Origin: Oscillospiraceae bacterium
GTDB taxonomy: Bacteria > Bacillota > Clostridia > Oscillospirales > Ruminococcaceae
Direction: 5' to 3'
NCBI GenBank assembly: GCA_021202155.1
Contig: JAJQDP010000042.1
Span: 1-40,904 of the forward strand
DNA length: 40,904 bases
Below, in pieces: positions 21,638 through 38,170 of this stretch. Numbering within the stretch: the first letter of the stretch is position 1; every line of letters begins with the position of its first letter. The translations under genes were made by a program, and so were the position numbers. The notes beneath the pieces were generated by a model. The model had not been told where the DNA came from. It worked only from the letters and a program-made list of their open reading frames with translations, and did no database searches.

Positions 21638-21904
21638 CTATCTGTAAACTTCCCGGCGGTGACCGATGCTGAGGGCGAGGATGATGAGTTCGTTATCGTT
21701 GATGTCGCACAAAAGGCGGTAGTCGCCGATGCGGTATCGCCAGATGCCTTTCAGGTCGCCGGTGAGAGCCTTACCGTGGGTATGTGGGTCAGAGCATCCT
21801 TCTAAGTTCTTCTCAATCCAGTTTACTATCAACTTTTGAGTGTATTTGTCCAGGTTTCCGAGCTCTTTGCGCGCTCGTTTCGAGAAAGCCACAGTGTATT
21901 TCAT
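21638..21904 (-). CDS. RelE/ParE superfamily type II toxin
   Basis: An 88-residue basic protein. Seen are 'YTVAFSKRARKELGNLD', 'GIWRYRIGDYRLLCDI' and the terminal 'GHRREVYR', all typical of RelE-like mRNA interferases that cut mRNA in the ribosomal A site. Its start overlaps the antitoxin stop by 4 bases (ATGA type), the usual coupling in these operons. Confidence 0.93.
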   Translation of the reverse strand: MKYTVAFSKRARKELGNLDKYTQKLIVNWIEKNLEGCSDPHTHGKALTGDLKGIWRYRIGDYRLLCDINDNELIILALSIGHRREVYR

Positions 21905-22119
21905 ACTCCGAGACTCTTTCTGACCTCGTCAAGGCTGTATGTCTTCGGGTCTTTTTGATATTCAGAATAAGCTTCCTCGGCGACAACCACGTCGTACTCG
22001 TCCTCAATTTTCTCAAAGAGAGCACGCTTGAAAGCCTCACCTACGGAAACGCTGTGGAGTTTGGCATAGCTTTCGGCTAAGCTCTTCTCGCTTTCGGATA
22101 AGCGGATGGAAAAGGTCAT
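21901..22119 (-). CDS. RelB/DUF6290-type antitoxin
   Basis: A 72-residue protein with an N-terminal ribbon-helix-helix ('MTFSIRLSESEKSLAESYAK', then 'SVSVGEAFKRALFEKIED') and an acidic C-terminal toxin-binding tail ('YQKDPKTYSLDEVRKSLGV'). First gene of the pair, with an AGGAGAC ribosome binding site. It is expected to repress its own promoter with the toxin. Confidence 0.92.
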   Translation of the reverse strand: MTFSIRLSESEKSLAESYAKLHSVSVGEAFKRALFEKIEDEYDVVVAEEAYSEYQKDPKTYSLDEVRKSLGV

Positions 22120-22397: not shown

Positions 22398-22490
22398 TGG
22401 CGGAGAAGGAGGGATTCGAACCCTCGATGAGCTATCAACCCATACACGAGTTCCAGTCGTGCGCCATAAACCGGGCTAGGCGACTTCTCC
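22398..22490 (-). tRNA. tRNA-Ser (anticodon GGA)
   Basis: Minus strand: acceptor GGAGAAG pairs with CTTCTCC, the anticodon loop CTGGAAC between CACGA and TCGTG gives GGA, the variable arm is long, the T arm GGGTTCGAATCCC is intact and CCA is encoded (22400-22398). Promoter at 22528-22556. It is the left neighbour of the phage-derived cassette, but the cassette lies on the 5' side of the tRNA, not the 3' side where integrases usually act. Confidence 0.95.
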
Positions 22491-22636: not shown

Positions 22637-22664
22637 TTGACAAATCAAAAATCAGGAGTATCAT
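22637..22664 (+). promoter_or_regulatory. promoter of candidate RNA and phage cassette
   Basis: TTGACA (22637-22642), 16 bp, TATCAT (22659-22664). It is the only good promoter seen upstream of the packaging genes. Confidence 0.65.
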
Positions 22665-22670
22665 TAGATT

Positions 22671-22835
22671 CAGAACAAAAGTTCAGAACGAAAGTTTCAG
22701 GGTGGCTGGGGAAGCTTGAGCTCGGGAGGTGTTTTGAGAACTGGCAGGAAGTGAACACTCCTAAGACAAGCGAAGACGCCGGATCGAGCGAGGTTTCCAC
22801 AGAATGAACAAAGCCGCCCCGGAGGACGACTTTGT
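22671..22835 (+). ncRNA. candidate structured non-coding RNA upstream of the packaging cassette
   Basis: The segment has no long reading frame but folds by eye into a long interrupted hairpin. CTGGGGAAGCTT (22706-22718) pairs with its complement near 22790-22803, GCTCG near 22720 with CGAGC near 22785, and an apical arm GGAG-TGTTT / GAACA-CTCC spans 22726-22761. A last hairpin AACAAAG / CTTTGTT (22807-22836) could end it. The shape recalls 6S-like rod RNAs, but I cannot assign a family. It may be an independent RNA or a long leader of the cassette. Confidence 0.5.
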
Positions 22836-22872
22836 TTCAAAGATTGGAAAAGAAAAAAGGAGAAATAAAAAT

Positions 22873-22977
22873 ATGAATGTTATCAAAAACACACAACTGT
22901 GTTATAGCAAGCTTTCTCCGATTTGTCAAGTGCTTTTTTCAGAAATATATGAAATTTGGAGGGATGAATTTGGGTAG
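22873..22977 (+). CDS. short reading frame overlapping the small terminase start
   Basis: A 34-codon frame starting 'MNVIKNTQLCYSKLS', with AAAGGAG about 10 bases upstream, a better signal than that of the next gene. It ends 7 bases after the TTG start of the terminase gene, in another frame, so it could couple translation to it. An early AACAC / GTGTT hairpin lies within. There is no homology clue; it may be only a translated leader. Confidence 0.35.
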   Translation: MNVIKNTQLCYSKLSPICQVLFSEIYEIWRDEFG

Positions 22978-23365
22978 CGGTAAAATAAGCGATTTCGAGA
23001 GGATCAGAATGATTGTCGACTATCTCGAAACGGGGAGTGCTCAGGAGGCGGCGGAAAGGAATAGTGTCAGCGAAACGACCGTGAGACGGGCTATTCGGGA
23101 CAGAAAGCGGCTTTCCTGTATAGTTTCCGGCGAGGATGACTCGCGGAATCGTCAGGCGGCGAGCGGGATTGTCGCGAAGTGTCTTGAAATCTTGGGCGAC
23201 GAGGAAAAGCTCAGAGGTGCGACCGTCTCTCAGCTCACAAGCGCGATTTCGTCTTTGTCGGACAGCTTTCTTTCGGAAGGCGAATCGGGTGGCGGGGAGG
23301 ACGACCCTCTCAGCAGGAGCATTCTTGAAATGGCGAAAGACCTGAAGAGCGACAAGCCGCAGTAG
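22970..23365 (+). CDS. phage terminase small subunit (TerS)
   Basis: About 131 residues. The N-terminal segment 'ISDFERIRMIVDYLETGSAQ' then 'EAAERNSVSETTVRRAIRDR' is a helix-turn-helix, followed by helices ('ATVSQLTSAISSLSDSFLSE') and a tail rich in Gly/Glu/Asp. This plus the TerL gene 13 bp downstream supports TerS, which recognises DNA for packaging. I prefer TTG at 22970 because GGAGG lies 7 bases before it; the ATG at 22964 is almost on top of that site. A still longer frame from 22877 has no ribosome binding site. Confidence 0.8.
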   Translation: MGSGKISDFERIRMIVDYLETGSAQEAAERNSVSETTVRRAIRDRKRLSCIVSGEDDSRNRQAASGIVAKCLEILGDEEKLRGATVSQLTSAISSLSDSFLSEGESGGGEDDPLSRSILEMAKDLKSDKPQ

Positions 23366-23378
23366 AGGGGGTGGGAGC

Positions 23379-24599
23379 TTGCTCAGTGAGAAGCAGAAAA
23401 AGATTTTCGCGTTTGCGGAGTCGGATTACGACGCGCTTATTTGTGACGGCGCGATCCGCTCCGGCAAAACCTCGGTGATGACGGTCGCGTTTGTCGACTG
23501 GGCGATGGCGAATTTCACGGGACAGCGGTTCGGAATCTGCGGGAAGACGGCGGACGGAGCGATCAAGAATATCATCCTCCCGTTCATGTCGATGAGCTAT
23601 CCGACTAAAAAGTATCACATCAGGTGGAAGCTGTCGACGAAGGTGATGGAGGTCTCCGACGGAACCGCCCGGAACATTTTCGAGGTTTTCGGCGGCAAGG
23701 ACGAGTCAAGCTTCATGCTGATTCAGGGAAGGACTTTTGCGGGAGCACTTATCGACGAGGTCGCACTCATGCCGAAGTCGTTCGTTTCGCAGGCGGTTGC
23801 AAGATGCTCGGTCGAGGGATCAAAGCTGTGGTTCAGTTGTAATCCCGAGTCGCCGGAGCACTGGTTCTATCGGGAGTGGATCTTAAAGGCTGATGAGCGC
23901 AACGCCATCTATCTGCACTTTTGCTTGGAGGACAACCCGTCCCTCTCAAAGAGAATCATCGACCGCTACAAGAGCTACTACTCGGGTGCTTTCTATGAGA
24001 GATACATCGAGGGCAGATGGGTTCTGGCGGAGGGATTGGTCTATGAGATGAGCGAGGACTACCTGACAGACGAGATCCCGACGCACGGCGAGTACTACAT
24101 CTCCTGCGACTACGGGACGATGAACCCTTGCTCAATGGGGCTGTGGTGCATAAGTAATGGAGTCGCGACGAGAATTTCGGAGTACTACTATGACGGAAGA
24201 GCCGAGAAGAAACAGCTCACCGACGAGGATTACTACCTGGCACTTGAAGCCTTGGCGGGAGACCTTCCCATAAGATACGTGATAGTCGACCCGTCTGCGT
24301 CAAGCTTCATCACTCTCATCCGCAAGCGCGGGAAGTTTCGGGTTAAGAAAGCGGACAACGACGTTATGAACGGAATCCGGCTGACGGCTGGGTTTATGAA
24401 GTCGGGAAAACTCAGGATTCACAGAAGCTGTAAGAACGCTCTGCGCGAATTCTCGCTCTACCGCTGGGACGACAAGTCCGGAAACGACAAGGTGGTGAAG
24501 GAAAATGACCACGCGATGGACGAGATAAGGTATTTCTCGTCGACAATACTTGCAAAGAAAAGAAATGAGCAGGAGCTGACAGGGCTCAGACTGCTCTGA
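23379..24599 (+). CDS. phage terminase large subunit (PBSX/Terminase_3 type)
   Basis: A 406-residue packaging motor. ATPase: Walker A 'GAIRSGKTS' (about 24-32), Walker B 'GALIDEVALM' (about 121-130), coupling motif 'SCNPESPEHWFY'. Nuclease domain acidic residues in 'SCDYGTMNP' (about 236), 'VIVDPSASS' (about 295) and 'HAMDEIRYF' (about 385). All key residues are present, so it looks active. The start is TTG with GGGGGTGGGAG upstream. SPP1/PBSX-type relatives package by a headful mechanism, relevant if the particle packs chromosomal DNA. Confidence 0.94.
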   Translation: MLSEKQKKIFAFAESDYDALICDGAIRSGKTSVMTVAFVDWAMANFTGQRFGICGKTADGAIKNIILPFMSMSYPTKKYHIRWKLSTKVMEVSDGTARNIFEVFGGKDESSFMLIQGRTFAGALIDEVALMPKSFVSQAVARCSVEGSKLWFSCNPESPEHWFYREWILKADERNAIYLHFCLEDNPSLSKRIIDRYKSYYSGAFYERYIEGRWVLAEGLVYEMSEDYLTDEIPTHGEYYISCDYGTMNPCSMGLWCISNGVATRISEYYYDGRAEKKQLTDEDYYLALEALAGDLPIRYVIVDPSASSFITLIRKRGKFRVKKADNDVMNGIRLTAGFMKSGKLRIHRSCKNALREFSLYRWDDKSGNDKVVKENDHAMDEIRYFSSTILAKKRNEQELTGLRLL

Positions 24600-24612
24600 G
24601 GAAAGGAGAAAT

Positions 24613-25902
24613 ATGTTTACATTTCAGGATTTGGAGAAGGCAAAGAAAGGGGAAAGGTGGGAGCAGAAGTTTCTTCCGAGTGCGGTCTCAGACTACAAGA
24701 CATCGAAGACCTATCGCGACACTCTTGACGCTCTCGCCTACTGGCGGAACGAGAACCCAACCATCACGAAATACCGGAAGCTTCTCTACACCGTTTCCGG
24801 CAGGGCTGTTCCCGACAACTACTCGGCGAACTTCCGGCTCGCTTCAAACGTCTACTTCCGGTTCGTAACTCAGACGGTGCAGTATCTTCTTGGGTACGGC
24901 GCAAGGTTCGAGAACCCGGAGACAAAGAAGCTCTTAGGTGGGAACGGCTTTGACCACGCCTTGCAGGAGGCTCTTACTGACGCCTTGAACGGCGGCGTTG
25001 CGTATGGCTTCATGAATAATGACCGGGTCGAGATTTTCGGCGCGGAGGAGTTCGTTCCTCTGTATGACGAGGAGACGGGCGAGCTCAAGGCGGGAATCAG
25101 GTTCTGGCAGTTAGATATTGACAAGCCATTGCGGCTCACGCTTTTTGAAGAAGACGGCTACACCGAGTATATCAGGCGTCGCGGAGAAGAGCTTTCGGTC
25201 ATGAAGCCGAAGAGGGCGTATAAGCGGATAGTTATCAGCTCTGACTATATGGATGAAATCACGGCTGAGGAGAACTATGACAGGCTTCCGATAGTTCCGC
25301 TCTACTCGCCGAGGAAGCAGTCGGGAATTGTGGGACTGCGCAGGCAGATTGACTGCTACGACCTCATCGAGTCGGGCTTTGCGAACGACATTGACGACGC
25401 GTCGATGATTTACTGGACAATCTCGAACGCCGGCGGCATGGACGACATCGACCTCGCCCGGTTCGTTGAGCACATGAAGACGGTCAAGGCGGCGGTCATC
25501 GAGGACGACGGAGCGCAGGCAGAGTCCCACACGACAGATATTCCCTACGCAAGCCGCGAAGCGATGCTCACAAGGCTTGAAAACGAGATGTACCGCGACT
25601 TTATGGTGCTGAACCTTGACACAGTAGCCGGCGGAAATTCGACTGCAACCGCAATCAAGGCGGCATACGAGCCGATGAACCTCTATTCAAATATGCTCGA
25701 ATACGCAGTTCTCAAGTTTGTTCACGGCTTACTCTCTCTTATCGGAACAGACGACACCTGCACCTTCAAGCGTGACACCATCGTAAACGAGCATGAAAAG
25801 GCACAGACTGAACGCGAAAGAGTGGAGACAGCACTGATGCTGAGAGGCTTATTCGACGACGAAACAGTAAAGGCACTCTGTGCGGAAGCACTGGGCATAT
25901 AA
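24613..25902 (+). CDS. phage portal protein (SPP1 gp6-like)
   Basis: A 429-residue protein of the SPP1-type portal family. N-terminal 'NPTITKYRKLLYTVSGR', the 'LASNVYFRFVTQTVQYLLGYGARF' core in part ('FVTQTVQYLLGYG'), 'IVPLYSPRKQSGIVGLRRQI' and 'LNLDTVAGGNSTATAIKAAY' in shorter pieces fit the family. Portals form the dodecameric ring through which DNA enters and leaves the head. It follows TerL by 13 bp with AAAGGAG. The gp7/MuF-type minor head gene that normally follows is absent. Confidence 0.92.
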   Translation: MFTFQDLEKAKKGERWEQKFLPSAVSDYKTSKTYRDTLDALAYWRNENPTITKYRKLLYTVSGRAVPDNYSANFRLASNVYFRFVTQTVQYLLGYGARFENPETKKLLGGNGFDHALQEALTDALNGGVAYGFMNNDRVEIFGAEEFVPLYDEETGELKAGIRFWQLDIDKPLRLTLFEEDGYTEYIRRRGEELSVMKPKRAYKRIVISSDYMDEITAEENYDRLPIVPLYSPRKQSGIVGLRRQIDCYDLIESGFANDIDDASMIYWTISNAGGMDDIDLARFVEHMKTVKAAVIEDDGAQAESHTTDIPYASREAMLTRLENEMYRDFMVLNLDTVAGGNSTATAIKAAYEPMNLYSNMLEYAVLKFVHGLLSLIGTDDTCTFKRDTIVNEHEKAQTERERVETALMLRGLFDDETVKALCAEALGI

Positions 25903-25938
25903 ATCGTATCAAAGTAACTATACGAGAAAGGAAAAACT

Positions 25939-26517
25939 ATGGCACTGACAAGAAAGATGCTCAAGGAAATGGGCATTACGGGTGAAAATGCGGATGCGAT
26001 TTTCAACGCTCACTGGAAGACTGTCGAGGCTCTGCAAGGCTACAAAGCCGAGGTGGAGAAATTGACCGGTCTTAAGAGTGAGCTTGAGAATGCAAAGAAC
26101 GCGATGCTCGACTATCAGACGAAATACGAGACTCTTGAGAGGGAGTACGGAGACTATCGGGAGGGAATCTCGAAGGAGAAGTCTTTGCAGGCTAAAAGAC
26201 TTGCAGTGACGGAAATGTTAAGAGAACTTCACATCCCGGAGGATTGTGTGAACCCTATTTTACATGTCACGGATTTCGATAAGATAGCTCTTGATGAGAG
26301 CGGCGCGCTTTTGGAAGAGGAGGCTGTGAGGAGCGGCATAAGCGAGCTCTGGTCGGGATTCATCCCGAAAAGGTACTGCTACGGCTCTGAAACGGCAAAT
26401 CCGCCCGCAAATTCATCTGGAAGAAGCTACTCGGCGGAGGATATAAGAAGAATGTCTCCCCGTGAAATCAACGAAAACTATCGGGCGATAAAAGAGTCGC
26501 TCAAATCTATCGACTAA
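25939..26517 (+). CDS. phage scaffold / minor structural GP20-like protein
   Basis: A 192-residue, strongly helical, charged protein. 'ALTRKMLKEMGITGENADAI' opens the GP20 scaffold pattern, then a coiled coil covers about residues 33-80 ('LKSELENAKNAMLDYQ', 'YETLEREYGDYREG'), and a basic/polar tail ends 'YRAIKESLKSID'. Position directly before the capsid gene supports an internal scaffold that guides head assembly. No protease domain is seen, so release must occur without self-cleavage or with a host enzyme. Confidence 0.87.
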   Translation: MALTRKMLKEMGITGENADAIFNAHWKTVEALQGYKAEVEKLTGLKSELENAKNAMLDYQTKYETLEREYGDYREGISKEKSLQAKRLAVTEMLRELHIPEDCVNPILHVTDFDKIALDESGALLEEEAVRSGISELWSGFIPKRYCYGSETANPPANSSGRSYSAEDIRRMSPREINENYRAIKESLKSID

Positions 26518-26535
26518 GAAAGGAAAGATAAAATT

Positions 26536-27375
26536 ATGGCAATCAATTCGTTTATACCTGAGCTCTGGAGTGCGAGACTCCTTGACGCTCTTGAAAAGGC
26601 TCACGTTGCGGGAAACATCGTAAATCGCGACTATGAGGGTGAAATCAAGCAGTGCGGCGCGTCCGTCAGAATCAACATGATTGGCGACATCACCGTTTCC
26701 GACTACATGAGGGGTTCTGAGATTTCTGACCCGGAGGAGCTCTCGACTACCGACGCTACCCTCGAAATCTCTCAGGCAAAGTATTTCAACTTCCAGATTG
26801 ATGACGTGGATGCGGCACAGGCGGCAGGAGACCTCATGGACAAGGCTATGCAGAGAAGTGCCTATGCGCTCAATGATGTCGCGGATGCATATATCCTTGA
26901 AACCATCGCTTCTGACGTGAGTGAGGATAATGTCATCGGTGCGGATTCGCCTGTCGCTCTCACAGCCGACAACGTCTATAGCTATATCGTTCAGCTAAGA
27001 CTCATCCTGGACAAAAACAACGTCCCGCACGAGGGCAGAAGCATAGTGCTTCCTCCCGAGGTCTATGCACTTCTTCTGCAGGATTCGAGATTCACAGGAG
27101 CAGGCACGATGGGTGAGGAGACCTCCAGAAGCGGCTTCATCGGAAGAATCGCAGGCTTTGACATCTATGAGTCGAACAACTGCTATGGCGATGGAGAGAC
27201 ATACTACGTCACGGCACAGGTTCCCTCTGCCTGCAGCTATGCGGAGCAGGTTTTGGAGACCTCGGCATATCGTCCCGAAAAGAGATTTGCCGACGCTGTC
27301 AAGGGACTCCACGTCTACGGTGCAAAGGTCACCGACCCGACAAGAATCGCCGCGCTCGTCTGCACGGTGGAATGA
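26536..27375 (+). CDS. phage major capsid protein (P22 coat-like)
   Basis: A 279-residue protein starting 'MAINSFIPELWSARLLDALE', with 'GNIVNRDYEGEIKQCGASVR' and 'INMIGDITVSDY', a central 'FQIDDVDAAQAAGDLMDKAM' and 'EGRSIVLPPEVYALLLQD'. These are typical of P22 coat/N4-gp56-type HK97-fold capsid proteins in Clostridia phages. It follows the scaffold gene by 18 bp with a good AAAGGA site. Intact and full length. Confidence 0.92.
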   Translation: MAINSFIPELWSARLLDALEKAHVAGNIVNRDYEGEIKQCGASVRINMIGDITVSDYMRGSEISDPEELSTTDATLEISQAKYFNFQIDDVDAAQAAGDLMDKAMQRSAYALNDVADAYILETIASDVSEDNVIGADSPVALTADNVYSYIVQLRLILDKNNVPHEGRSIVLPPEVYALLLQDSRFTGAGTMGEETSRSGFIGRIAGFDIYESNNCYGDGETYYVTAQVPSACSYAEQVLETSAYRPEKRFADAVKGLHVYGAKVTDPTRIAALVCTVE

Positions 27376-27431
27376 TAGCTTTTTTCCGGGCGGGAGCTTT
27401 CTCGCCCGGAAGAGATTGAAAGGAGAAAGGC

Positions 27432-27830
27432 ATGATTGAAGCTGTTTGCAGGCACATAAAAAACTACTTTATTACTGATGTTTATGCAGGAAAATTTACC
27501 ATTTCCGGCGGAGAGGTAATAGACACAGATTTCATGCGGGACGGCTACTATCTCATCTGGGGAAGTAAGTATAACGACGCGGTTCACCTCTATCCCGACG
27601 ACGTCCTCACAGATGAGGAGTTCGACGGCGACATCGCGCTTATGAACCCGCCGGAGGATTTCCTGGCACTCTGCACGGAAATAGAAGACTATATGGCGTC
27701 CGACATGGCGTCGCCATCGCCCTACAAGAAGGAGAGCTTTGGCGGATATTCCTATGAAATGAACGATTCCGGGTCGAACAGATGGCAGAAGATATTTGCC
27801 TCCAGACTCAACCAATGGAGGAAGCTATAA
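27432..27830 (+). CDS. probable head-tail connector/adaptor protein
   Basis: A 132-residue protein starting 'MIEAVCRHIKNYFITDVYAG', with a strand-rich middle ('GYYLIWGSKYNDAVHLYPDD') and a helical end ('SRWQKIFASRLNQWRKL' in part: 'IFASRLNQWRKL'). Its position right after the capsid gene and its size fit a gp15/gp6-type connector that docks under the portal. Similarity is by pattern and position only. The stop shares a base with the next start (TAATG). Confidence 0.65.
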   Translation: MIEAVCRHIKNYFITDVYAGKFTISGGEVIDTDFMRDGYYLIWGSKYNDAVHLYPDDVLTDEEFDGDIALMNPPEDFLALCTEIEDYMASDMASPSPYKKESFGGYSYEMNDSGSNRWQKIFASRLNQWRKL

Positions 27831-28540
27831 TGAGCCTTATAGACCTGTTTTCGACACAGTTTACAAAACTCACCGTCACCACCGAGACCGATTCACTCGG
27901 GAACACGCTCACAAGTCTTAGCGACGATGTGACCTTCACAGGAGCGTTGGTTCTGGACAGTTCATCCGAGTCGGATTCCCGGCTTGTAAGAAAGTACACG
28001 CTTACCGTTTCGCCTGAAGTAGACCTAGGTTATGGCGACATTTTCAGAAGGGATTCTGACGGGGAAGTTTTTGAGATTACCGGCGAGGACACGGGCGAGT
28101 CGCCTGAGATGGCAACCTTCTCCTTCCGGCAGTTTATAGTCAAGGACTATGAGGGTTCAACTACAGTTTCCGGTTCGCTCGTCATAACAGACGGCAGTTC
28201 GACAGTTATCCTGTCACTCGGAACTGACTATACTATCACAAAGTCGCGAATCGGAAGTACCGCCACAGCCTCTGACGGGACGACAGTTCTGGATGTCATC
28301 GGCTGTAAGGTGACACTGAGCGTGAGCGATGCCGAGCTTTCGAGGGAGATGGCATCGGCACTTGTCGGGATGATTGAGGCTTCGCCGTTTCTGAGTGTGA
28401 CTTACCCGGACATTTCGGGAAGCGTCACGACTGATTTTCTCTTTGACATTCCGAAGCTTGAAGCAAGAGAATTCGATTCTGATGGAGTCTGCACCTGGTG
28501 CGCGGTGACTCTCACGGCGACAGGAAAGGAAGTGGAATAG
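27830..28540 (+). CDS. phage structural protein, stopper/tail-adaptor-like (possible two-domain)
   Basis: A 236-residue, strand-rich protein. The first half ('LGYGDIFRRDSDGEVFEITG', then 'EMATFSFRQFIVKDYEG') resembles head-closure/stopper proteins of the SPP1 gp16 type. The second half ('SPFLSVTYPDISGSVTTDFL') resembles small tail components that follow them in gut phages. The two may be fused here, which would shorten the path from head to hub. The ATG at 27830 is chosen because it overlaps the previous stop; the earlier in-frame ATG at 27782 lies within the connector gene. Confidence 0.55.
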   Translation: MSLIDLFSTQFTKLTVTTETDSLGNTLTSLSDDVTFTGALVLDSSSESDSRLVRKYTLTVSPEVDLGYGDIFRRDSDGEVFEITGEDTGESPEMATFSFRQFIVKDYEGSTTVSGSLVITDGSSTVILSLGTDYTITKSRIGSTATASDGTTVLDVIGCKVTLSVSDAELSREMASALVGMIEASPFLSVTYPDISGSVTTDFLFDIPKLEAREFDSDGVCTWCAVTLTATGKEVE

Positions 28541-29587
28541 ATGAAGGATTTTTCGGAAGATTATGACCCGGATGCCGTGCTCAGACAGATTGGTGTGAAA
28601 ATAGAGCTCCTCGGCGACTATGAGGGGCTTGAGATGGAAACCGGGGACATAATCAGCCTGGAGCTCACCGAAAGCCTTGACATTACCGGCGAAACCTTCC
28701 CGTCGCGCTCCCTCAGGCTCAAGGCTATTGACAGCCTTGGACTCTCGTTCGCCTCTCAGACAGCCGACTATAGCGGAGTGCAGTTTGAAGTGCTGATTGG
28801 AATCAATGGCGAGTATATTTCGGTGGGAAAGTACTACATTGACGAGATTGAAACTGAGGACCTGGGACTCACCGTCACAATCGAGGCGTCAGACCAGGTC
28901 AAAACCCGAATGGATAAGCACATGACCGGCTTGTATACCAGCTCGGCTATAAGTATGTCAACGCTTATTAACTATCCATCGGGAGCACTTACGGGGCTTG
29001 ACCTCTACTGTGACGAGGACACGCTTTCCGCGATGGTCTATCCTGATATGCTGACAACCGTTGATTCCCAGCGCGACTGCCTTCTCAAGCTTTCGCAAGC
29101 CGCAGGAATGGCTTCAATCTGGGTGGACAGAGAGGAAACGGTCCACATGGAGAGAATCGCCGGAAGAACCGGTTACTCTGCGACTATTTCGCCAAGCGAA
29201 ATCTTGGAGTATTCCAGCCTGAAGCTCGGAAGTCACACCGACTATGTCGAGGTGACGGGTGAGAACGCGGACGGAACGACCTTCGACTCGACAAGCGGAA
29301 CATACACTGTGGGCTGTCTTGCGGAGTTTTTAGAGAACGATTTCGTTTTCAGCGGGTTTGCGATGATTGTGGCGACCAACTATTTAGAGTCGAAAAACCA
29401 GCGGTTCGGGCTCACTCTTAAGACGAGATGCAACCCGGCATTGGAGCCGGGAGACAGAGTTCTTGTCCTGAAACCGGACGGAAGCGAAACAGGCGAATTC
29501 ACGCTCACGTCCCAGACAATTCACTTTGACGAGGACGGGCTGTACTCGAGACTTGAGCTCTGTGCCCCGTCTCCTACAGACGGCTAA
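28541..29587 (+). CDS. phage tail hub/baseplate-like protein
   Basis: A 348-residue protein. 'PSRSLRLKAIDSLGLSFA', 'FEVLIGINGEYISVGKYYID' and 'TVTIEASDQVKTRMDKHM' show the strand pattern of tail hub proteins of siphophages and of prophage-like gene clusters, and the C-terminal half ('LEPGDRVLVLKPDGSETGEF') has the late beta domain of such hubs. Starts directly at the previous stop. There is no tail tube or tape-measure gene before it, which is very unusual for a hub of this kind. No receptor-binding or fibre domain is seen. Confidence 0.7.
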   Translation: MKDFSEDYDPDAVLRQIGVKIELLGDYEGLEMETGDIISLELTESLDITGETFPSRSLRLKAIDSLGLSFASQTADYSGVQFEVLIGINGEYISVGKYYIDEIETEDLGLTVTIEASDQVKTRMDKHMTGLYTSSAISMSTLINYPSGALTGLDLYCDEDTLSAMVYPDMLTTVDSQRDCLLKLSQAAGMASIWVDREETVHMERIAGRTGYSATISPSEILEYSSLKLGSHTDYVEVTGENADGTTFDSTSGTYTVGCLAEFLENDFVFSGFAMIVATNYLESKNQRFGLTLKTRCNPALEPGDRVLVLKPDGSETGEFTLTSQTIHFDEDGLYSRLELCAPSPTDG

Positions 29588-29596
29588 GGAGGTAAA

Positions 29597-29857
29597 ATGG
29601 CTGATATGATAATAAAGACCGCTTCGGTCATCTCGGCACTTACCGTTGCGGCAGGCGCGGCGGTATCAATCGTGAAGTGGTACTTAAGCCAGAAGAAGCA
29701 GGCGGCGGAGATCCTCAGAATAAAAGAAGAGAACACGCTCATCTGCTTCGCACTCTCCGCCTGTCTTGACGGCTTGGGTCAGCTTGGAGCAAATCACACC
29801 GTCACAACCGCCAAGGACAAGCTTGACAAGTACCTCAACCAGCAGGCACACAGGTAA
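29597..29857 (+). CDS. holin-like phage membrane protein
   Basis: An 86-residue protein with one N-terminal membrane segment ('VISALTVAAGAAVSIVKWYL'), then a charged helix with 'EILRIKEENTLICFALSACL' and 'DKLDKYLNQQAHR'. Near-identical patterns occur in Clostridia prophages just before lysozyme genes, where database names are often misleading (permease). A holin or holin accessory role is inferred from place and topology. Confidence 0.72.
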   Translation: MADMIIKTASVISALTVAAGAAVSIVKWYLSQKKQAAEILRIKEENTLICFALSACLDGLGQLGANHTVTTAKDKLDKYLNQQAHR

Positions 29858-29864
29858 ACCTGAG

Positions 29865-30122
29865 ATGAGAAAGCGCGACAAAAAGCCTCTTGGGACGATA
29901 GACAGGATTCTTGTCATTTTGGGAGGCTTCATGGGACTATTCACAATAGTGATGATTGTGACATTTTATATAAAGGACGCCGTGCCGGACACCCTCATCA
30001 CCTGCGTAATGGGTTGCGGCGGAGTTGAGGGAATCCTCACGGCGGCGATAACCATTTCAAAACAGATTACAAAAGGCAATTCTAATCAAGATACAAATGA
30101 CGAACAGGAGGATTACAAATGA
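29865..30122 (+). CDS. small phage membrane protein next to the endolysin (holin candidate 2)
   Basis: An 85-residue protein starting 'MRKRDKKPLGTIDRILVILG', with two membrane spans (about 13-35 and 45-66) and a polar tail. The pattern is common beside phage lysozymes of gut Firmicutes. The stop overlaps the endolysin start (ATGA). The start at 29865 is chosen because translation upstream runs inside the preceding gene. Confidence 0.68.
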   Translation: MRKRDKKPLGTIDRILVILGGFMGLFTIVMIVTFYIKDAVPDTLITCVMGCGGVEGILTAAITISKQITKGNSNQDTNDEQEDYK

Positions 30123-30754
30123 GCGAATACAAAGGCATAGACGTTTCAAAATATCAATCGCCCGCAAAGATGGACTATAAGGCACTGAAAGACCTCGGCT
30201 ACAGCTTCGTTATTGCGAAAGCCGGAAGCCTGAAAGCAAAGGATTCTGCGTTCGACACACACTACACCAAGGCTCGTGCCGCCGGCTTGTCGGTGGGAGC
30301 ATATCTCTACAGCTATGCCACCACTGAGGATGAAGCCTCAAAAGAAGCCAAGCTTATGCTCTCGTGGATAAAGGGCAAGAAGCTCACCCATCCGATAGTC
30401 TACGACATCGAGAACAGCACACAGAAAGCTCTCGGCAGGGAGAAGTGCACCGACATCGCGCTGAGATTCTTAACAGAAATCGAGGACGCCGGCTGTTATG
30501 CGATGCTCTATTCCTACGCAAACTTCATCAAGAACTATCTCAATATGGATAGACTCAAGCATTTCGACGTCTGGCTCGCGTGTTATACAACTGAAGAGCG
30601 TAGAAGAGCACTCTACACTTATCCCATTTTAGGCATCTGGCAATACTCCTCTTCGGAAATTCTCGAAGGAGTATATCCGTCAAGGCTCGACCAGGATATT
30701 GCATACAAAGACTATGCCAGGATAATCAAGACTAAGGGCTTAAATGCGGTTTGA
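30119..30754 (+). CDS. GH25 lysozyme (endolysin)
   Basis: A 211-residue single-domain GH25 muramidase. 'YKGIDVSKYQSPAKMDYKAL' carries the first active-site Asp, 'PIVYDIENST' the catalytic Asp/Glu pair, and 'IWQYSSSEILEGV' plus 'RLDQDIAYKDY' close the barrel. It cuts peptidoglycan glycan chains. It has no signal peptide and no cell-wall-binding domain, so release through the adjacent holin-like proteins is expected. It is the last gene of the cassette, followed by a terminator. Confidence 0.95.
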   Translation: MSEYKGIDVSKYQSPAKMDYKALKDLGYSFVIAKAGSLKAKDSAFDTHYTKARAAGLSVGAYLYSYATTEDEASKEAKLMLSWIKGKKLTHPIVYDIENSTQKALGREKCTDIALRFLTEIEDAGCYAMLYSYANFIKNYLNMDRLKHFDVWLACYTTEERRRALYTYPILGIWQYSSSEILEGVYPSRLDQDIAYKDYARIIKTKGLNAV

Positions 30755-30759
30755 ATCAA

Positions 30760-30786
30760 GAAAGCTGTCCAAAAGGGCAGCTTCTT
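30760..30786 (+). terminator. terminator of the phage cassette
   Basis: Stem AAAGCTGTCC / GGGCAGCTTC (with T-G pairing) and loop AAAA, 5 bp after the endolysin stop. Confidence 0.8.
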
Positions 30787-30809
30787 CAATATAAAGATAT
30801 AGAATTGTG

Positions 30810-30838
30810 TTGACAAAAGCCAAATTATCATGTACAAT
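30810..30838 (+). promoter_or_regulatory. toxin mRNA promoter, module 1
   Basis: TTGACA (30810-30815), 17 bp, TACAAT (30833-30838). About 140 bases of leader follow before the toxin start, including a GGAGCAGT-T-ACTGCTCC hairpin (30912-30928). Confidence 0.85.
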
Positions 30839-30862
30839 TACAATGACAGAGAAGTGAGGATT

Positions 30863-30886
30863 ATGAGCAGGTGCACATACTCGTGA
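30863..30886 (+). CDS. seven-codon leader frame MSRCTYS, module 1
   Basis: ATG to TGA, with GTGAGGA 2 bases upstream. The copy in module 2 (31917-31940, minus strand) encodes the same seven residues while differing at two third-codon positions (AGC/AGT, TCG/TCA). Synonymous-only change hints at translation, but the sample is tiny and an RNA hairpin (GAG..CTC) overlaps it. Confidence 0.35.
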   Translation: MSRCTYS

Positions 30887-30978
30887 TCCAATATGGTCGA
30901 CCTCTTCCTGAGGAGCAGTTACTGCTCCGGTAGTTTCTGCTCCGCAGAGATTACATAAAATAAGGAGAGTCGATAAAT

Positions 30979-31071
30979 ATGACAACTTCCGAAGTTTTAT
31001 TGCTTCTCAGTTTAATATTTACAGTTGTTTTCAAGCTGTTCGACGTCTGGTCAGACAGCCATAAAAAATAA
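30979..31071 (+). CDS. type I toxin, holin-like family (module 1)
   Basis: A 30-residue peptide starting 'MTTSEVLLLLSLIF', with one membrane span, then 'FDVWSDSHKK'. This matches the small 'putative holin-like toxin' family of Bacillota type I systems (TxpA/BrnT-unrelated, Fst-like topology). AAGGAGAG lies about 9 bases upstream. Expected to insert in the membrane and depolarise it when free of its antisense RNA. The long leader and hairpin suggest delayed translation, as in other type I toxins. The minus-strand promoter at 31192-31220 faces it. Confidence 0.85.
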   Translation: MTTSEVLLLLSLIFTVVFKLFDVWSDSHKK

Positions 31072-31074
31072 CCG

Positions 31075-31186
31075 CCCGGTAACTTAACACGAGCAGGGAC
31101 GGTCACTTTCCACATATAGTGTAGGATTCTCATCCACACATTTTGGGGTCGACTCGGAACTGTTAGCCGCGGTTCCGCTTCTCTGT
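31075..31186 (-). ncRNA. candidate antitoxin antisense RNA, module 1
   Basis: Predicted from the promoter at 31192-31220 to run leftwards over the 3' part of the toxin transcript. It includes GCGGAACC-GCGG-type and GTGGAAAGTGACCGTCCCTG segments and CCGGGCGGTTATTTTT near the toxin stop, which could serve as terminator. The 3' end is inferred. Confidence 0.6.
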
Positions 31187-31191
31187 CATCT

Positions 31192-31220
31192 ATTATAACC
31201 CATTCTCGCCGTTTTGTCAA
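31192..31220 (-). promoter_or_regulatory. antisense promoter, module 1
   Basis: Minus strand: TTGACA (31220-31215), 17 bp, TATAAT (31197-31192). Confidence 0.88.
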
Positions 31221-31337
31221 CGGCTTTTTTTGCGCCTAAGAAAAAATAACTTCATTCGAGGTTCGTTCCGAACGGATTTTGTGCAAATGTCACAGTTCAG
31301 CCGCAAATATAGCCTGAATATTCGGATGATTTACCAC

Positions 31338-31364
31338 TTGCGGGGGGCGATTGTGTGATATAAT
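31338..31364 (+). promoter_or_regulatory. probable promoter of the enclosed peptide gene
   Basis: A good TATAAT (31359-31364) with a weak TTGCGG (31338-31343) at 15 bp. Start would be near 31371. Confidence 0.5.
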
Positions 31365-31394
31365 GACGTAAAGATTTGATATGGAGGCATCTTT

Positions 31395-31529
31395 ATGAAA
31401 TACAATAAGTCTGTAATGGAAATAACCTTGTTCGCCGAAATGGATACTTTCGTAGCGGCAGAATTGGATGGTTCAGGTGGTAAGGTTGATCCTGGCGAGG
31501 TTGGCGGCGGCAGTACGCCTGACGATTGA
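31395..31529 (+). CDS. 44-residue peptide enclosed by the two TA modules
   Basis: Starts 'MKYNKSVMEITLFAEMDTFV' and ends in a Gly/Pro/Asp-rich tail ('GEVGGGSTPDD'). GGAGG lies 7 bases upstream, a promoter-like site precedes and a terminator follows, so it looks like a real, independent gene. The 'MKYxKxxMEI' opening is shared by many short orphan peptides of gut Clostridia; their function is unknown. A modified or secreted peptide is possible from the leader-plus-Gly-rich-tail layout, but no maturation genes are nearby. Confidence 0.7.
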   Translation: MKYNKSVMEITLFAEMDTFVAAELDGSGGKVDPGEVGGGSTPDD

Positions 31530-31541
31530 AACCGAAGAAAA

Positions 31542-31568
31542 AATCCTCGTAAATTGCGGGGATTTTTC
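31542..31568 (+). terminator. terminator of the peptide gene
   Basis: AATCCTCG / CGGGGATT stem (one T-G pair), loop TAAATTG, followed by a T run. Confidence 0.85.
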
Positions 31569-31579
31569 ATGAGAAGCCG

Positions 31580-31608
31580 TTGACAACACGGCTTTTTTGC
31601 GCTATAAT
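31580..31608 (+). promoter_or_regulatory. antisense promoter, module 2
   Basis: TTGACA (31580-31585), 17 bp, TATAAT (31603-31608), facing the module 2 toxin on the minus strand. Confidence 0.88.
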
Positions 31609-31614
31609 AAATGA

Positions 31615-31728
31615 CAGAGAAGCGGAACTGCCGCAAACGGTTCCGAGTCGACCCCAAAATGTGCGGATAAGAATCCTACACTATAAGTGGAAAGTGACCG
31701 TTCCTGTTTGGTTTAAGTAGCCGGGCGG
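31615..31728 (+). ncRNA. candidate antitoxin antisense RNA, module 2
   Basis: Predicted from the promoter at 31580-31608 and running into the 3' end of the minus-strand toxin gene. It carries GCGGAACTGCCGC and GTGGAAAGTGACCGTTCCTG, matching module 1 RNA with changes. The CCGGGCGGTTACTTCTTTTT end could terminate it. Differences from module 1 RNA may set specificity. Confidence 0.6.
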
Positions 31729-31824
31729 TTACTTCTTTTTATTGTTGTCCGACCAAATGTCGAACAAACGGAAGATAACCGAAAACACTAGCTCAAGAAG
31801 CAATAACACTTCAGTAAGAGTCAT
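31729..31824 (-). CDS. type I toxin, holin-like family (module 2)
   Basis: A 31-residue peptide starting 'MTLTEVLLLLELVF', with one membrane span, then 'FDIWSDNNKKK'. It is a clear paralogue of the module 1 toxin: the 'TEVLLLL', 'LFDxWSD' and terminal lysine features are kept. AAGGGAGG lies about 9 bases upstream on the minus strand, stronger than in module 1. The two toxin genes converge towards the enclosed peptide gene. Confidence 0.85.
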   Translation of the reverse strand: MTLTEVLLLLELVFSVIFRLFDIWSDNNKKK

Positions 31825-31916
31825 GTTTATCGACCTCCCTTCTTTTGTGCAATCTCTGCGGAGCAGAAACTACCGGAGCAGTAACTGCTCCTCAGGAAGA
31901 GGTCGACCATATTGGA

Positions 31917-31940
31917 TCATGAGTATGTGCACCTACTCAT
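31917..31940 (-). CDS. seven-codon leader frame MSRCTYS, module 2
   Basis: Same peptide as the module 1 leader, differing only at synonymous third positions. Lies between the module 2 toxin promoter and the toxin frame. Confidence 0.35.
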   Translation of the reverse strand: MSRCTYS

Positions 31941-31964
31941 AATCCTCACTCCTCTGTCACCGTA

Positions 31965-31993
31965 ATTGTACACCATAAAATGATTTTTGTCAA
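31965..31993 (-). promoter_or_regulatory. toxin mRNA promoter, module 2
   Basis: Minus strand: TTGACA (31993-31988), 17 bp, TACAAT (31970-31965). Confidence 0.85.
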
Positions 31994-32088
31994 CACAATT
32001 CCACATTCTGATAGTCAAAATCTGCCTTTTGGCGGATTTTTTGTTTCCATCAATTCCGCATTCCGAATTAAGAATTCCGAATTGTCTA

Positions 32089-35634: not shown

Positions 35635-36306
35635 ATGGTAGTCATCGGTAATGACTGGGACGAGGTAATCGGCGGGGAATTTTCAAAGGATTACTATCTC
35701 AAGCTCCGCGACTTTCTTAAAACGGAGTATTCGAGCGGCACTATCTACCCCGACATGTATCACATATACACAGCCCTGAAGCTGACGCCCTATCACTCGG
35801 TCAAGGTGGTAATTTTCGGGCAGGATCCCTATCACGAGCCCGGGCAGGCGCATGGGCTCTGCTTCTCTGTTCAGAACGGAACGGCTCTCCCACCGTCTCT
35901 CAGGAACATCTATAAAGAGCTTGAGACCGACCTCGGAATCCCGCCGGCTGAGACGGGGGATTTGACATCCTGGGCGGAGCAGGGAGTTTTGCTTCTCAAC
36001 ACCGTCCTCACCGTCCGCCGCGGTCAGGCTAATTCCCATAAGGGAAAGGGCTGGGAGATTCTGACGGATGAGATCATCCGCAAGCTCAACGAGCGCGAAA
36101 ACCCGATGGTTTTCATCCTCTGGGGCGCGAACGCGCGCAGTAAAAAGGCACTGATAACCAACCCCCAGCACCTGATAATAGAATCCGCCCACCCGAGCCC
36201 GCTTTCAGCCGGGGGTGGCTTCTTCGGCTCGCGCCCGTTCTCAAGAACGAACCAGTTCTTAGCGGAAAACGGCGAGGTGCCGATTAATTGGGAAGTGGGA
36301 AAATAG
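35635..36306 (+). CDS. ung: uracil-DNA glycosylase, family 1
   Basis: A 223-residue enzyme that removes uracil from DNA. Water-activating Asp64 lies in 'GQDPYHEPGQAHGLCFSV', the leucine-loop motif in 'SAHPSPLSAGGGFFGSRPFS', and 'VLLLNTVLTVRRGQANSHKG' is the usual middle segment. Start ATG at 35635 gives the usual length. It is the last core gene before the restriction-modification cassette. Confidence 0.96.
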   Translation: MVVIGNDWDEVIGGEFSKDYYLKLRDFLKTEYSSGTIYPDMYHIYTALKLTPYHSVKVVIFGQDPYHEPGQAHGLCFSVQNGTALPPSLRNIYKELETDLGIPPAETGDLTSWAEQGVLLLNTVLTVRRGQANSHKGKGWEILTDEIIRKLNERENPMVFILWGANARSKKALITNPQHLIIESAHPSPLSAGGGFFGSRPFSRTNQFLAENGEVPINWEVGK

Positions 36307-36320
36307 TTTACGGTTTAACA

Positions 36321-36339
36321 TGGTTCCAAAATGGAACCA
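36321..36339. promoter_or_regulatory. palindrome before the restriction-modification genes
   Basis: TGGTTCCA-AAA-TGGAACCA, perfect 8-bp arms, 48 bp before the dam start. It could be an operator that times methylase and nuclease expression. No controller (C) gene is seen in the cassette. Confidence 0.5.
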
Positions 36340-36386
36340 ACTCACAGGATGATTTAGTTGTGAATGGTAAGAAAGGACTTGAGACA

Positions 36387-37286
36387 ATGACTAAAAAGGC
36401 TTTAAAACCGATTGTAAAATGGGCAGGTGGCAAGGGTCAACTCATTGGAGAAATCTCATCTCTATACCCAAAAGGATTGGGCACGTCTATAAAGAGGTAT
36501 GCCGAGCCTTTTGTTGGCGGTGGTGCGGTTTTGTTTGATATTCTTTCTAAGTACGATATGGATGAAGTTTACATAAGCGATATAAATGCAGAGCTTATAA
36601 ACATGTATTGCAAAGTCAAAACGGAGGCGAGTGAGTTAGTTTCGCTTCTTTCGACTTTACAGGAACAGTTTATTCCACTCAGCGATAGTGAAAGAAAGAT
36701 TTACTACTATGAGAGAAGAAGCAGGTACAACGGTCTGATTTTAAGCGGGAAAAGTGAAGATAGCCTCGAATCGGCGGCGTTGTTTATATTTTTGAATCGG
36801 ACTTGCTTCAATGGATTATATCGTGTAAACAGCAAGGGATTATATAATGTTCCTATGGGTGCATACAAGAATCCTCAAATCTGTGATGCGGATAATATAA
36901 TGGCGGCTTCGGAAGCATTACAGAACGTTGAAATAGTTTGTGGTGACTATAAGGAATCGGAAAAATTCATAGATAAAAATACTTTTGTATACTTTGATCC
37001 GCCATACCGCCCGCTGAACGCTACTTCAAACTTCACTTCTTATACCGAGAATGATTTTGGTGATAAGGAACAGGTTGAGTTATCTGAGTTTGCGGGAAGA
37101 ATGCGAAAAAAGGGTGCTCAGATTGTTTTGAGCAATTCCGACCCGAAAAATACCAATTCAGAAGATGAGTTTTTTGATAAGATATATTCCTCTTATATCA
37201 TCCGAAGAGTGGAAGCGACCAGAATGATTAATTGCAATAGTGCCTCAAGAGGCAGAATAAAAGAATTGCTCATATCGAATTATTGA
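36387..37286 (+). CDS. DNA adenine methylase, DpnM/Dam type (GATC)
   Basis: A 299-residue alpha-class N6-adenine methyltransferase. SAM-binding motif I 'KWAGGKGQLI' lies near residues 11-20, 'AEPFVGGGAVLFDIL' follows, and catalytic 'YFDPPYRPL' near 204-212. The D12/Dam family and the DpnII-type nuclease next door point to GATC specificity. The ATG at 36387 is preferred (AAGGA upstream, family-like start); an in-frame ATG at 36288 lies in ung. Base composition is clearly more A/T-rich than ung or the gene at 39499, suggesting acquisition. Confidence 0.93.
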   Translation: MTKKALKPIVKWAGGKGQLIGEISSLYPKGLGTSIKRYAEPFVGGGAVLFDILSKYDMDEVYISDINAELINMYCKVKTEASELVSLLSTLQEQFIPLSDSERKIYYYERRSRYNGLILSGKSEDSLESAALFIFLNRTCFNGLYRVNSKGLYNVPMGAYKNPQICDADNIMAASEALQNVEIVCGDYKESEKFIDKNTFVYFDPPYRPLNATSNFTSYTENDFGDKEQVELSEFAGRMRKKGAQIVLSNSDPKNTNSEDEFFDKIYSSYIIRRVEATRMINCNSASRGRIKELLISNY

Positions 37287-37297
37287 CGGTGGTAGAC

Positions 37298-38161
37298 ATG
37301 GAAAAGAGAGATTTCAGAAAGTGGTTGTCCGAATTTCGAGATAGTATAGCCGATTATAGCTACTATATCGATTTCGGAAAGGTTTACCGCAATGTAGACA
37401 ATATTAAGATTGAGTTGAATATACTGAACTCACTCGTGGGGTCAGCCAGTATTGAGAACGATTTCAGAAATATTCTGAAAAAGTATCCAGAAGTTCTGAA
37501 ATGTATCCCTATACTATTAGCTGTTCGTTCTGACGAAATAGAAGCTATGGACGAGGACGGGAGTTTTTCGTATGATTTCGGTCATAATACGCTTTCTGTG
37601 GAGCAGTATATTGTATTCATGCACAAAACAGGTTTGTTTGACCTTATTTCAAATCATATTGTCAGCAATCTTGTCGATTATGTGACGGGTGTTGAAACTG
37701 GACTTGATTCCAACGGTCGAAAAAATAGGGGCGGACATCTGATGGAAAATCTGGTTGAGAGTTTCATTCAAAAAGCTGGTTTTATAAGGGAAGAAAGCTA
37801 TTTCAAAGAGATGTACATTCATCAGATTTCCGAGAAGTGGGGGCTTGATCTTTCTGCAATTTCCAATCAGGGCAAAATGGAAAAAAGATTTGATTTCGTG
37901 GTCAAAACTCCTTCTACGGTTTACGGGATAGAAACGAACTTCTATGGAAGTGGTGGGAGCAAGCTGAATGAGACTGCAAGGAGCTACAAGACTTTGGCTC
38001 TTGAATCGAAAACTGTCGATGGGTTTAAGTTTGTATGGTTTACAGATGGAAAGGGTTGGATGAGTGCGAGAAATAACCTTGAGGAAACCTTTGATGTAAT
38101 GGATGAGGTTTATAACATCAATGATTTAGAAAACGGCATCATCGAAAAAATAATGAAGTAA
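37298..38161 (+). CDS. type II restriction endonuclease, DpnII/MboI family (GATC)
   Basis: A 287-residue protein, about the length of DpnII. 'EKRDFRKWLSEFRDSIADY', 'LNILNSLVGSASIENDF' and 'PILLAVR' open the family; 'GLDSNGRKNRGGHLMENLVE' and 'KRFDFVVKTPSTVYGIETNF' contain the likely PD-(D/E)xK-type acidic residues (Asp in RFDF, Glu in GIETN). It should cut unmethylated GATC. The ATG at 37298 lies 11 bp after the methylase stop; a TTG at 37283 overlapping that stop is the alternative start. Confidence 0.9.
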   Translation: MEKRDFRKWLSEFRDSIADYSYYIDFGKVYRNVDNIKIELNILNSLVGSASIENDFRNILKKYPEVLKCIPILLAVRSDEIEAMDEDGSFSYDFGHNTLSVEQYIVFMHKTGLFDLISNHIVSNLVDYVTGVETGLDSNGRKNRGGHLMENLVESFIQKAGFIREESYFKEMYIHQISEKWGLDLSAISNQGKMEKRFDFVVKTPSTVYGIETNFYGSGGSKLNETARSYKTLALESKTVDGFKFVWFTDGKGWMSARNNLEETFDVMDEVYNINDLENGIIEKIMK

Positions 38162-38170
38162 GGATTCCGC

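Follow-up and report, generated by a model that had tools for sequence, protein, structure and literature searches.

A conserved phage head-and-lysis operon at a fixed chromosomal site in Oscillospiraceae that likely works like a gene transfer agent

Introduction

An Oscillospiraceae bacterium (assembly GCA_021202155.1, contig JAJQDP010000042.1) carries a compact cassette of phage-type packaging, head, and lysis genes, which raises the question of whether such a cassette is a leftover of a phage, a satellite, or a tool that the host has made its own. The whole stretch of DNA analyzed, 40,904 nucleotides in length, is called the window below. The original prediction, made from the sequence of the window, had named three readings: a particle resembling a gene transfer agent (GTA), a capsid-forming satellite that borrows tails, and a minimal short-tailed phage remnant. 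We conclude, with a probability of roughly 65%, that the cassette is a phage head-and-lysis operon, domesticated and maintained by vertical descent, that works like a GTA. This reading is drawn from the gene content, the conservation, the fixed site, the operator, a difference in the small terminase (TerS), and the reduction of the tail, all read from sequence.

Results

Gene content of the cassette

The list of open reading frames (ORFs) and the family matches confirmed eleven intact, tightly packed genes on the forward strand, running from TerS to a GH25 lysozyme over about 7.8 kb (22964-30754; Table 1). The predicted packaging, portal, scaffold, capsid, connector, hub-like, holin-like, and lysozyme genes were all recovered by family matches and, for the hub, by its fold. 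The large terminase (TerL) has kept the key residues attributed to it: GAIRSGKT, ALIDEVAL, and acidic residues of the nuclease were read by eye, and we take these to be the Walker A, Walker B, and nuclease acidic motifs, respectively. The GC content of the cassette (about 0.50-0.54) was within the range of the whole window and, as had been stated, not deviant.

In agreement with the original prediction, no integrase, repressor, replication gene, tube, tape measure, or fiber was recognized among the eleven genes. The rest of the genome, where an integrase or tail module of the same element might have been located, contained three tyrosine recombinases (PF00589, profile search), every one on a contig other than that of the window; no relatives of these three were found in the window or in 40 fetched loci, the related genomes having been covered without an integrase-profile scan. 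The tape-measure family PF10145, the sole one tried, was absent from the whole genome; of 14 control genomes, 7 were positive in the same search. Queries with the tape-measure and tube proteins of phages gave no match in the window. Phage-derived head and packaging genes in a cassette without integrase or replication genes are a trait of GTAs.

Conservation and purifying selection at one site

A TerL search of the genus (31 genomes, including the one studied here) gave a match in all 30 other genomes. The window-type capsid was found in 16 of the 31, namely in eleven genomes of group A, which includes the window, and in five of group B. In the ten other species of group A, the genes had the same order at the same chromosomal site, so the cassette is present in 11 species rather than in a single strain, and the recurrence that the original prediction had proposed to look for was found. 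The nicotinamidase flank was seen in 10/10 of these relatives, and the flank formed by the downstream gene, assigned by eye to glycogen phosphorylase (glgP), was seen in 8/10; the contigs of the remaining two stop earlier, and one of these two genomes has even its cassette divided between contigs.

None of the 121 cassette genes (11 genes in 11 species) had an internal stop. The median ω values (NG86, 11 species, 55 pairs) of TerS, TerL, portal, scaffold, capsid, and connector were 0.15, 0.047, 0.066, 0.21, 0.13, and 0.08, respectively, and those of the fusion protein, hub, small protein, holin-like protein, and lysozyme were 0.10, 0.12, 0.031, 0.22, and 0.059, respectively. For four host genes in the flanks (9-11 species each), ω was 0.04-0.13. 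The cassette values, 0.03-0.22 overall, are far below the value near 1 expected of relaxed selection; in agreement with the original prediction, the cassette is not decaying. The median dS was 0.45-1.9 for the cassette genes (at least 0.8 for 10 of 11) versus 0.78-1.15 for the flanks, with some pairs saturated. Because the median dS in most cases equals or exceeds that of the flanking genes, the cassette seems to have been at its site for about as long as its neighbors. Vertical maintenance under purifying selection, with some exchange between species, is a further trait of GTAs that the cassette has in common with them.

These results bear most directly on the idea that the cassette is what remains of a prophage, decaying or cryptic, or else a minimal phage with a short tail. 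All its genes are indeed phage-type, and relatives with a full siphophage tail exist (L087 and L088), but the occurrence in 11 species, the lack of internal stops, and the strong purifying selection are hard to reconcile with a remnant. Of 113 viral contigs with a related capsid, 80 were examined, many of them short or cut, and none of these had a full cassette or a hub match. Furthermore, two of the same species also contain true prophages (L199 and L200), which differ from the cassette and keep a tape measure; unlike them, the cassette has no recognized integrase, repressor, replication genes, or complete tail, which are the traits of a temperate prophage. The remnant reading fails on conservation, and we regard it as most improbable. 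In each of the two siphoprophages (L199:9345-11046 and L200:8907-10604), there are two tandem capsid genes, 56-58% identical to the window capsid.

Promoter, LexA-type operator, and 5′ leader

The cassette had been described as bounded by a promoter and a terminator. The promoter was confirmed (22637-22664) and is kept in 11/11 group A species; the terminator was not, since the scan listed none at 30760-30790, and the hairpin present there has no T run.

Downstream of the promoter, the motif scan gave a tandem LexA/SOS-type operator consisting of GAACAAAAGTTC and GAACGAAAGTTT. The strict motif GAAC-N4-GTTC occurs at nine sites in the 2.25-Mb genome versus 136 for the reversed control pattern. 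Matches with one mismatch were not enriched in the window (15 versus 20 expected), and the case for the operator therefore depends on its position and its conservation. Upstream of TerS, the motif was present in all 11 group A and all four readable group B cassettes (15/15), and the group B operator, GAACATATGTTC in 4/4, stands right after a TATTAT-type -10 element. Within 1.5 kb upstream of TerL, it was found at 0/25 other TerL loci (14 in the genus and 11 outside, some with short upstream sequence). The other eight strict sites of the genome comprised two at the promoter region of a short-chain dehydrogenase (SDR) and Y-family polymerase locus and six inside long reading frames.

Across the genus, GAACATATGTTC was found at 15 sites in 8 of the 31 genomes: four cassette promoters, one Y-family polymerase gene, eight at a ynzC/WYL-type locus (one of them assigned via common neighbors at a contig end), and two others, with gene names read by eye. 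A near-match of the box lies beside the ynzC gene of the genome studied here, which was found by profile. The motif follows the LexA consensus, and ynzC and Y-family polymerases have a role in the SOS response. The genome encodes a LexA with its protease core (by eye). Thus, the cassette has the mark of a LexA/SOS regulon, GAAC-N4-GTTC at a promoter and common to SOS-type genes of the same genus, and these data argue strongly for LexA/SOS control of the cassette. At L171:1501-1545 of the same genome, a promoter region with two LexA-type boxes precedes genes for the SDR, the Y-family polymerase (PF00817), and a YolD-like protein (by eye); an SDR gene within an SOS-type operon seems unusual.

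The 5′ leader (22802..22900, forward strand) is strongly conserved: across 11 species, 83 of its 99 columns do not vary, versus 97 of 200 in the C-terminal part of TerS. It contains a T run where the frame relations to TerS vary between species, and its alifold energy was matched by only 1 of 100 column shuffles. Together with the hairpin, Shine-Dalgarno sequence, and upstream ORF listed in Table 1, this leader looks like a device for translational control.

Stepwise reduction of the tail

The cassette had been called tail-poor. Tail genes are indeed few, but the cassette is not tail-less: besides a hub of the gp27 fold, it encodes a stopper and a tail-end domain. The siphophages L087 and L088 (the latter being IMGVR_UViG_3300031760_000447) have homologous portal, scaffold, connector, and stopper genes, the L088 capsid being 61% identical, and differ from the cassette in keeping tail completion, tube, tape-measure, and tip genes. 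In group B, a tube was present in 4/5 and a tape measure in none, and the 124-amino acid tail-end domain is a separate gene in loci L042 and L043. In group A, the neck and tail-end proteins are fused and stand beside the gp27-like hub. This series suggests that the tail was shortened stepwise, from phage to group B to group A. Identification of the 124-amino acid domain as a Dit protein found no support in profile comparison, and the domain is named by its position. The fusion protein gave a poor structure model (pLDDT 52) and was left out of the fold search.

TerS with and without a helix-turn-helix domain

The N-terminal helix-turn-helix (HTH) of the window TerS matched HTH_23 below the Pfam cut-off (E 7e-4) and aligns with the HTH of four group B TerS proteins, one of which was scanned and matched HTH_28 (E 2.3e-6). 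An in-frame block of 150 nucleotides carrying the HTH (23008-23157) is missing in all ten group A relatives, whose remaining sequence aligns, and the one relative TerS scanned gave no HTH match. For the shared C-terminal part, the window TerS branches before the ten relatives (support 88/87, moderate), and for the flanking genes the species of the window is sister to one of the ten (support 100/100). Either the shortened TerS allele may have spread by exchange, or the window may have regained the long one.

The HTH also bears on a satellite reading, in which the element makes its own heads, takes the tails of a helper phage, and spreads itself. Capsid-forming phage-inducible chromosomal islands (cf-PICIs), satellites of this kind, are defined by an integrase and their own mobility and regulation module. 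Consistent with such an element, the cassette has its own head genes and few tail genes, and the HTH-bearing TerS of the window and group B could recognize its own DNA. However, no integrase, mobility gene, regulator, or replication gene was recognized in the cassette, the contig of the window has no integrase, and the chromosomal site is the same in 11 species. An own hub and neck as well as an own holin-like gene and lysozyme are retained. We consider the satellite reading very unlikely.

Cassettes across and beyond the genus

In group B, TerL, portal, and capsid were 61-71% identical to those of the window, and the group A flanking genes were absent; tRNA-Ser(gga) lies directly beside two of the four readable cassettes and 9.4 kb upstream of a third. 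The TerL of the other 15 genomes was about 49-54% identical. Fourteen of these loci were read (group C, L046-L059), and they contain TerL, an own portal and a capsid (both unrelated to those of the window), a 125-amino acid protein, a 250-amino acid protein, and a hub-like gene in 6.4-7.4 kb, with a clustered TerS in 11/14 and an extra gene of 280 amino acids in 7/14. An ABC-transporter gene follows directly in 7/14, and argS (by eye) lies upstream in 6/14. The fifteenth genome (76% complete) yielded merely a TerL stretch of 94 residues. Hence, one cassette, of type A/B or type C, is present in 30 of the 31 genomes and a fragment in the remaining one; a second, weak (25%) TerL match occurs in two genomes.

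Profile comparison found little in common between groups A and C beyond TerL, and the alignment of the group C hub with the A/B hub was weak (34% over 262 columns) and suggestive only. No lysis gene was recognized by eye in the group C cassettes; their lysis genes may be located elsewhere in the genome. That group C represents ordinary prophages was considered and dropped, as the loci are 6.4-7.4-kb cassettes, several with common flanks. The group C 250-amino acid protein was likewise rejected as a fusion of tail-completion and tail-end proteins like that in L045 (probability below 1% in profile comparison).

Outside the genus, a hub-like cluster was found in 9 of 11 loci read. Among 295 sampled genomes of the order, it occurred in four of the family besides two of the genus, and a window-type portal at E<=1e-60 occurred in two genomes besides the one studied here. 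We tentatively propose, as a possibility that falls somewhat short of an even chance, that each species of the genus keeps exactly one of at least two unrelated mini-capsid systems lacking a tape measure, one of them LexA-controlled, and that the genus would thereby harbor a new stub-tailed GTA lineage derived from siphophages by stepwise tail removal, with an HTH-bearing TerS in the species of the window.

Table 1. Positions of the cassette genes and of the upstream landmark and control elements in the window
Feature	Position	Strand	Basis or remark
tRNA-Ser(gga)	22398..22490	-	Landmark directly upstream of the cassette in 11/11 group A loci
Sigma-70-type promoter	22637..22664	+	TTGACA-16-TATCAT, 11/12 consensus
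Tandem LexA/SOS-type operator	22673..22697	.	Motif scan; GAACAAAAGTTC 22673-22684, GAACGAAAGTTT 22686-22697
Leader hairpin	22806-22838	+	Read from sequence
Shine-Dalgarno GGAGAAA	22859-22865	+	Complementary to TTTCTCC, 22913-22919, inside upstream ORF
34-codon upstream ORF (MNVIKNTQL...)	22873..22977	+	Overlaps TerS start; read from sequence
Small terminase TerS	22964..23365	+	133 aa; TerS-like, weak match to N-terminal HTH only
Large terminase TerL	23379..24599	+	phrog_2, E 1.7e-45
Portal, SPP1 gp6-like	24613..25902	+	SPP1_portal, E 1.9e-31
Scaffold	25939..26517	+	Phage_scaffold, E 1.5e-7, slightly under Pfam cut-off
Major capsid protein, P22-coat-like	26536..27375	+	phrog_267, E 5.8e-73
Head connector	27432..27830	+	phrog_1236, E 4.4e-5
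Neck/tail-end fusion, 236 aa	27830..28540	+	N half siphophage stopper, C half 124-aa tail-end domain
Tail-tip hub, T4 gp27/Mu gp44/VgrG fold	28541..29587	+	Predicted structure and fold comparison
Small membrane-type protein	29597..29857	+	phrog_1009; 93-97% identity across group A loci holding the gene
Holin-like membrane protein	29865..30122	+	phrog_38777; start read from sequence
GH25 lysozyme (endolysin)	30119..30754	+	Family match, E 2.3e-32

Other elements in the window

At 30785-32018, a small hydrophobic peptide is encoded twice in convergent orientation (MTTSEVLLLLSLIFTVVFKLFDVWSDSHKK and a relative on the reverse strand), inside 82-85% inverted repeats and with strong promoter-like sites. 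The arrangement resembles a type I toxin-antitoxin pair. Between the two copies, a 44-amino acid ORF (31396-31530, MKYNKSVMEITLFAEMDTFVAAELDGSGGKVDPGEVGGGSTPDD) is possibly a modified-peptide precursor. A ParE-type toxin gene with a small antitoxin-like ORF upstream (21638-22119, reverse strand) lies beside tRNA-Ser, and a DpnII-type restriction-modification island (D12 methylase, DpnII nuclease, and N6/N4 methylase; 36288-39462) is flanked on one side by a uracil-DNA glycosylase gene and on the other by tRNA genes.

Discussion

The cassette was compared with known domesticated particles. RcGTA of alphaproteobacteria is siphovirus-like and has a full tail, unlike the cassette. PBSX of Bacillus subtilis has a long tail, whereas no tube or tape measure was recognized in the cassette. 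PBSX, likewise domesticated in a Gram-positive host, packages 13.4-kb host fragments and differs in acting as a tailocin whose DNA is not injected, according to PMC12946183.

The closest published system is FpGTA, from the neighboring Clostridia lineage Faecalibacterium (Borodovich et al. 2026, PMC12946183, January 2026), with which the cassette was compared by description. That paper describes a two-operon element present in all 12 Faecalibacterium genomes examined by the authors, with likely podovirus-like 40-nm particles that contain 8.4-8.9-kb host fragments; the authors call it the first GTA with podovirus-like morphology. According to the same paper, packaging was seen in taxa such as Onthomonas and Gemmiger, metagenome-assembled genomes (MAGs) were searched, and a strong operon candidate was obtained only in Faecalibacterium. 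The cassette and FpGTA, as described there, share a compact chromosomal TerS-TerL-portal-scaffold-capsid operon, the lack of replication genes, a likely podovirus-like particle, and the use of lysis genes. They differ in that FpGTA has two operons about 125 kb apart (in one circular genome), the second holding baseplate, fiber, receptor-binding, and lysis genes, whereas here a single operon of 7.8 kb, with a LexA-type box at its promoter, holds the neck, hub, and lysis genes. Moreover, the FpGTA TerS is described as having no obvious DNA-binding domain, in contrast to the window TerS. In the open-licence literature, no paper on FpGTA other than PMC12946183 was found, and none that, by title or start of abstract, describes this cassette, operator, or TerS series.

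The example of PBSX leads to a rival with more weight than the two discussed above, namely a domesticated particle that serves lysis or killing after SOS induction and does not deliver the DNA it has packaged. The same genomic evidence fits this reading, no receptor-binding gene was identified in the cassette, and the FpGTA authors keep this option for their own particle (PMC12946183). On the other hand, neither a sheath nor a long tail nor a bacteriocin module was recognized, and TerL is among the most constrained genes (ω 0.047; portal 0.066), which suggests that DNA packaging matters. A killing particle is thus a serious but unlikely alternative to the GTA-like reading.

Several observations weigh against the GTA-like reading itself. 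No fiber or receptor-binding protein was identified in the cassette. The expectation that cassette and host trees would match had to be abandoned: of the 8 splits in the flanking-gene tree, the cassette gene trees recovered 3, 1, and 2 (among 2000 random trees, 1477 recovered none and 7 recovered three or more), and because the agreement is only partial, parts of the cassette must have been exchanged between species. A portal scan of named genomes gave 17 loci, all from MAGs or uncultured organisms, mostly Oscillospiraceae or Ruminococcus. Six of the nine strict motifs lie inside long reading frames, and, contrary to expectation, no box was found at lexA or recA of the genome. Both group C TerS proteins scanned match Terminase_2, a common phage family, with no sign of HTH loss.

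The most specific objection concerns the window TerS. Loss of the TerS DNA-binding domain has been proposed as a mark of GTA-type TerS (Sherlock et al., PMC6854486), and the putative TerS of all known GTAs is described as lacking this domain (review PMC11841831). The window TerS keeps its HTH, and packaging could therefore still be sequence-specific. Of the three readings in the original prediction, the domesticated, GTA-like one is well supported and the other two are not; its standing as a true GTA is qualified by a TerS that departs from a trait common to the published agents.

With these points weighed, the cassette likely works like a GTA, in the following manner. DNA damage would be sensed through LexA, whose release from the operator overlying the start of the promoter would let the cell make terminase, portal, scaffold, capsid, neck, a stub tail ending in the gp27-type hub, the holin-like protein, and the lysozyme. 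The particles formed would be small heads filled with DNA by the terminase, released by lysis, and possibly able to deliver DNA to recipients. Because there are no integrase or replication genes and the ten closest relatives lack the DNA-binding domain of TerS, the DNA packaged would be that of the host, perhaps at random, and not that of the cassette.

GTAs are known from few lineages, and this locus supplies gene sets to look for in others. At a single site, the species of group A offer a natural pair of TerS forms that do and do not have the DNA-binding domain, and the series of intermediates from a long-tailed phage to a stub-tailed host tool makes this change directly testable. If the reading is true, the cassette would be a likely vehicle for moving these bacteria's own genes.

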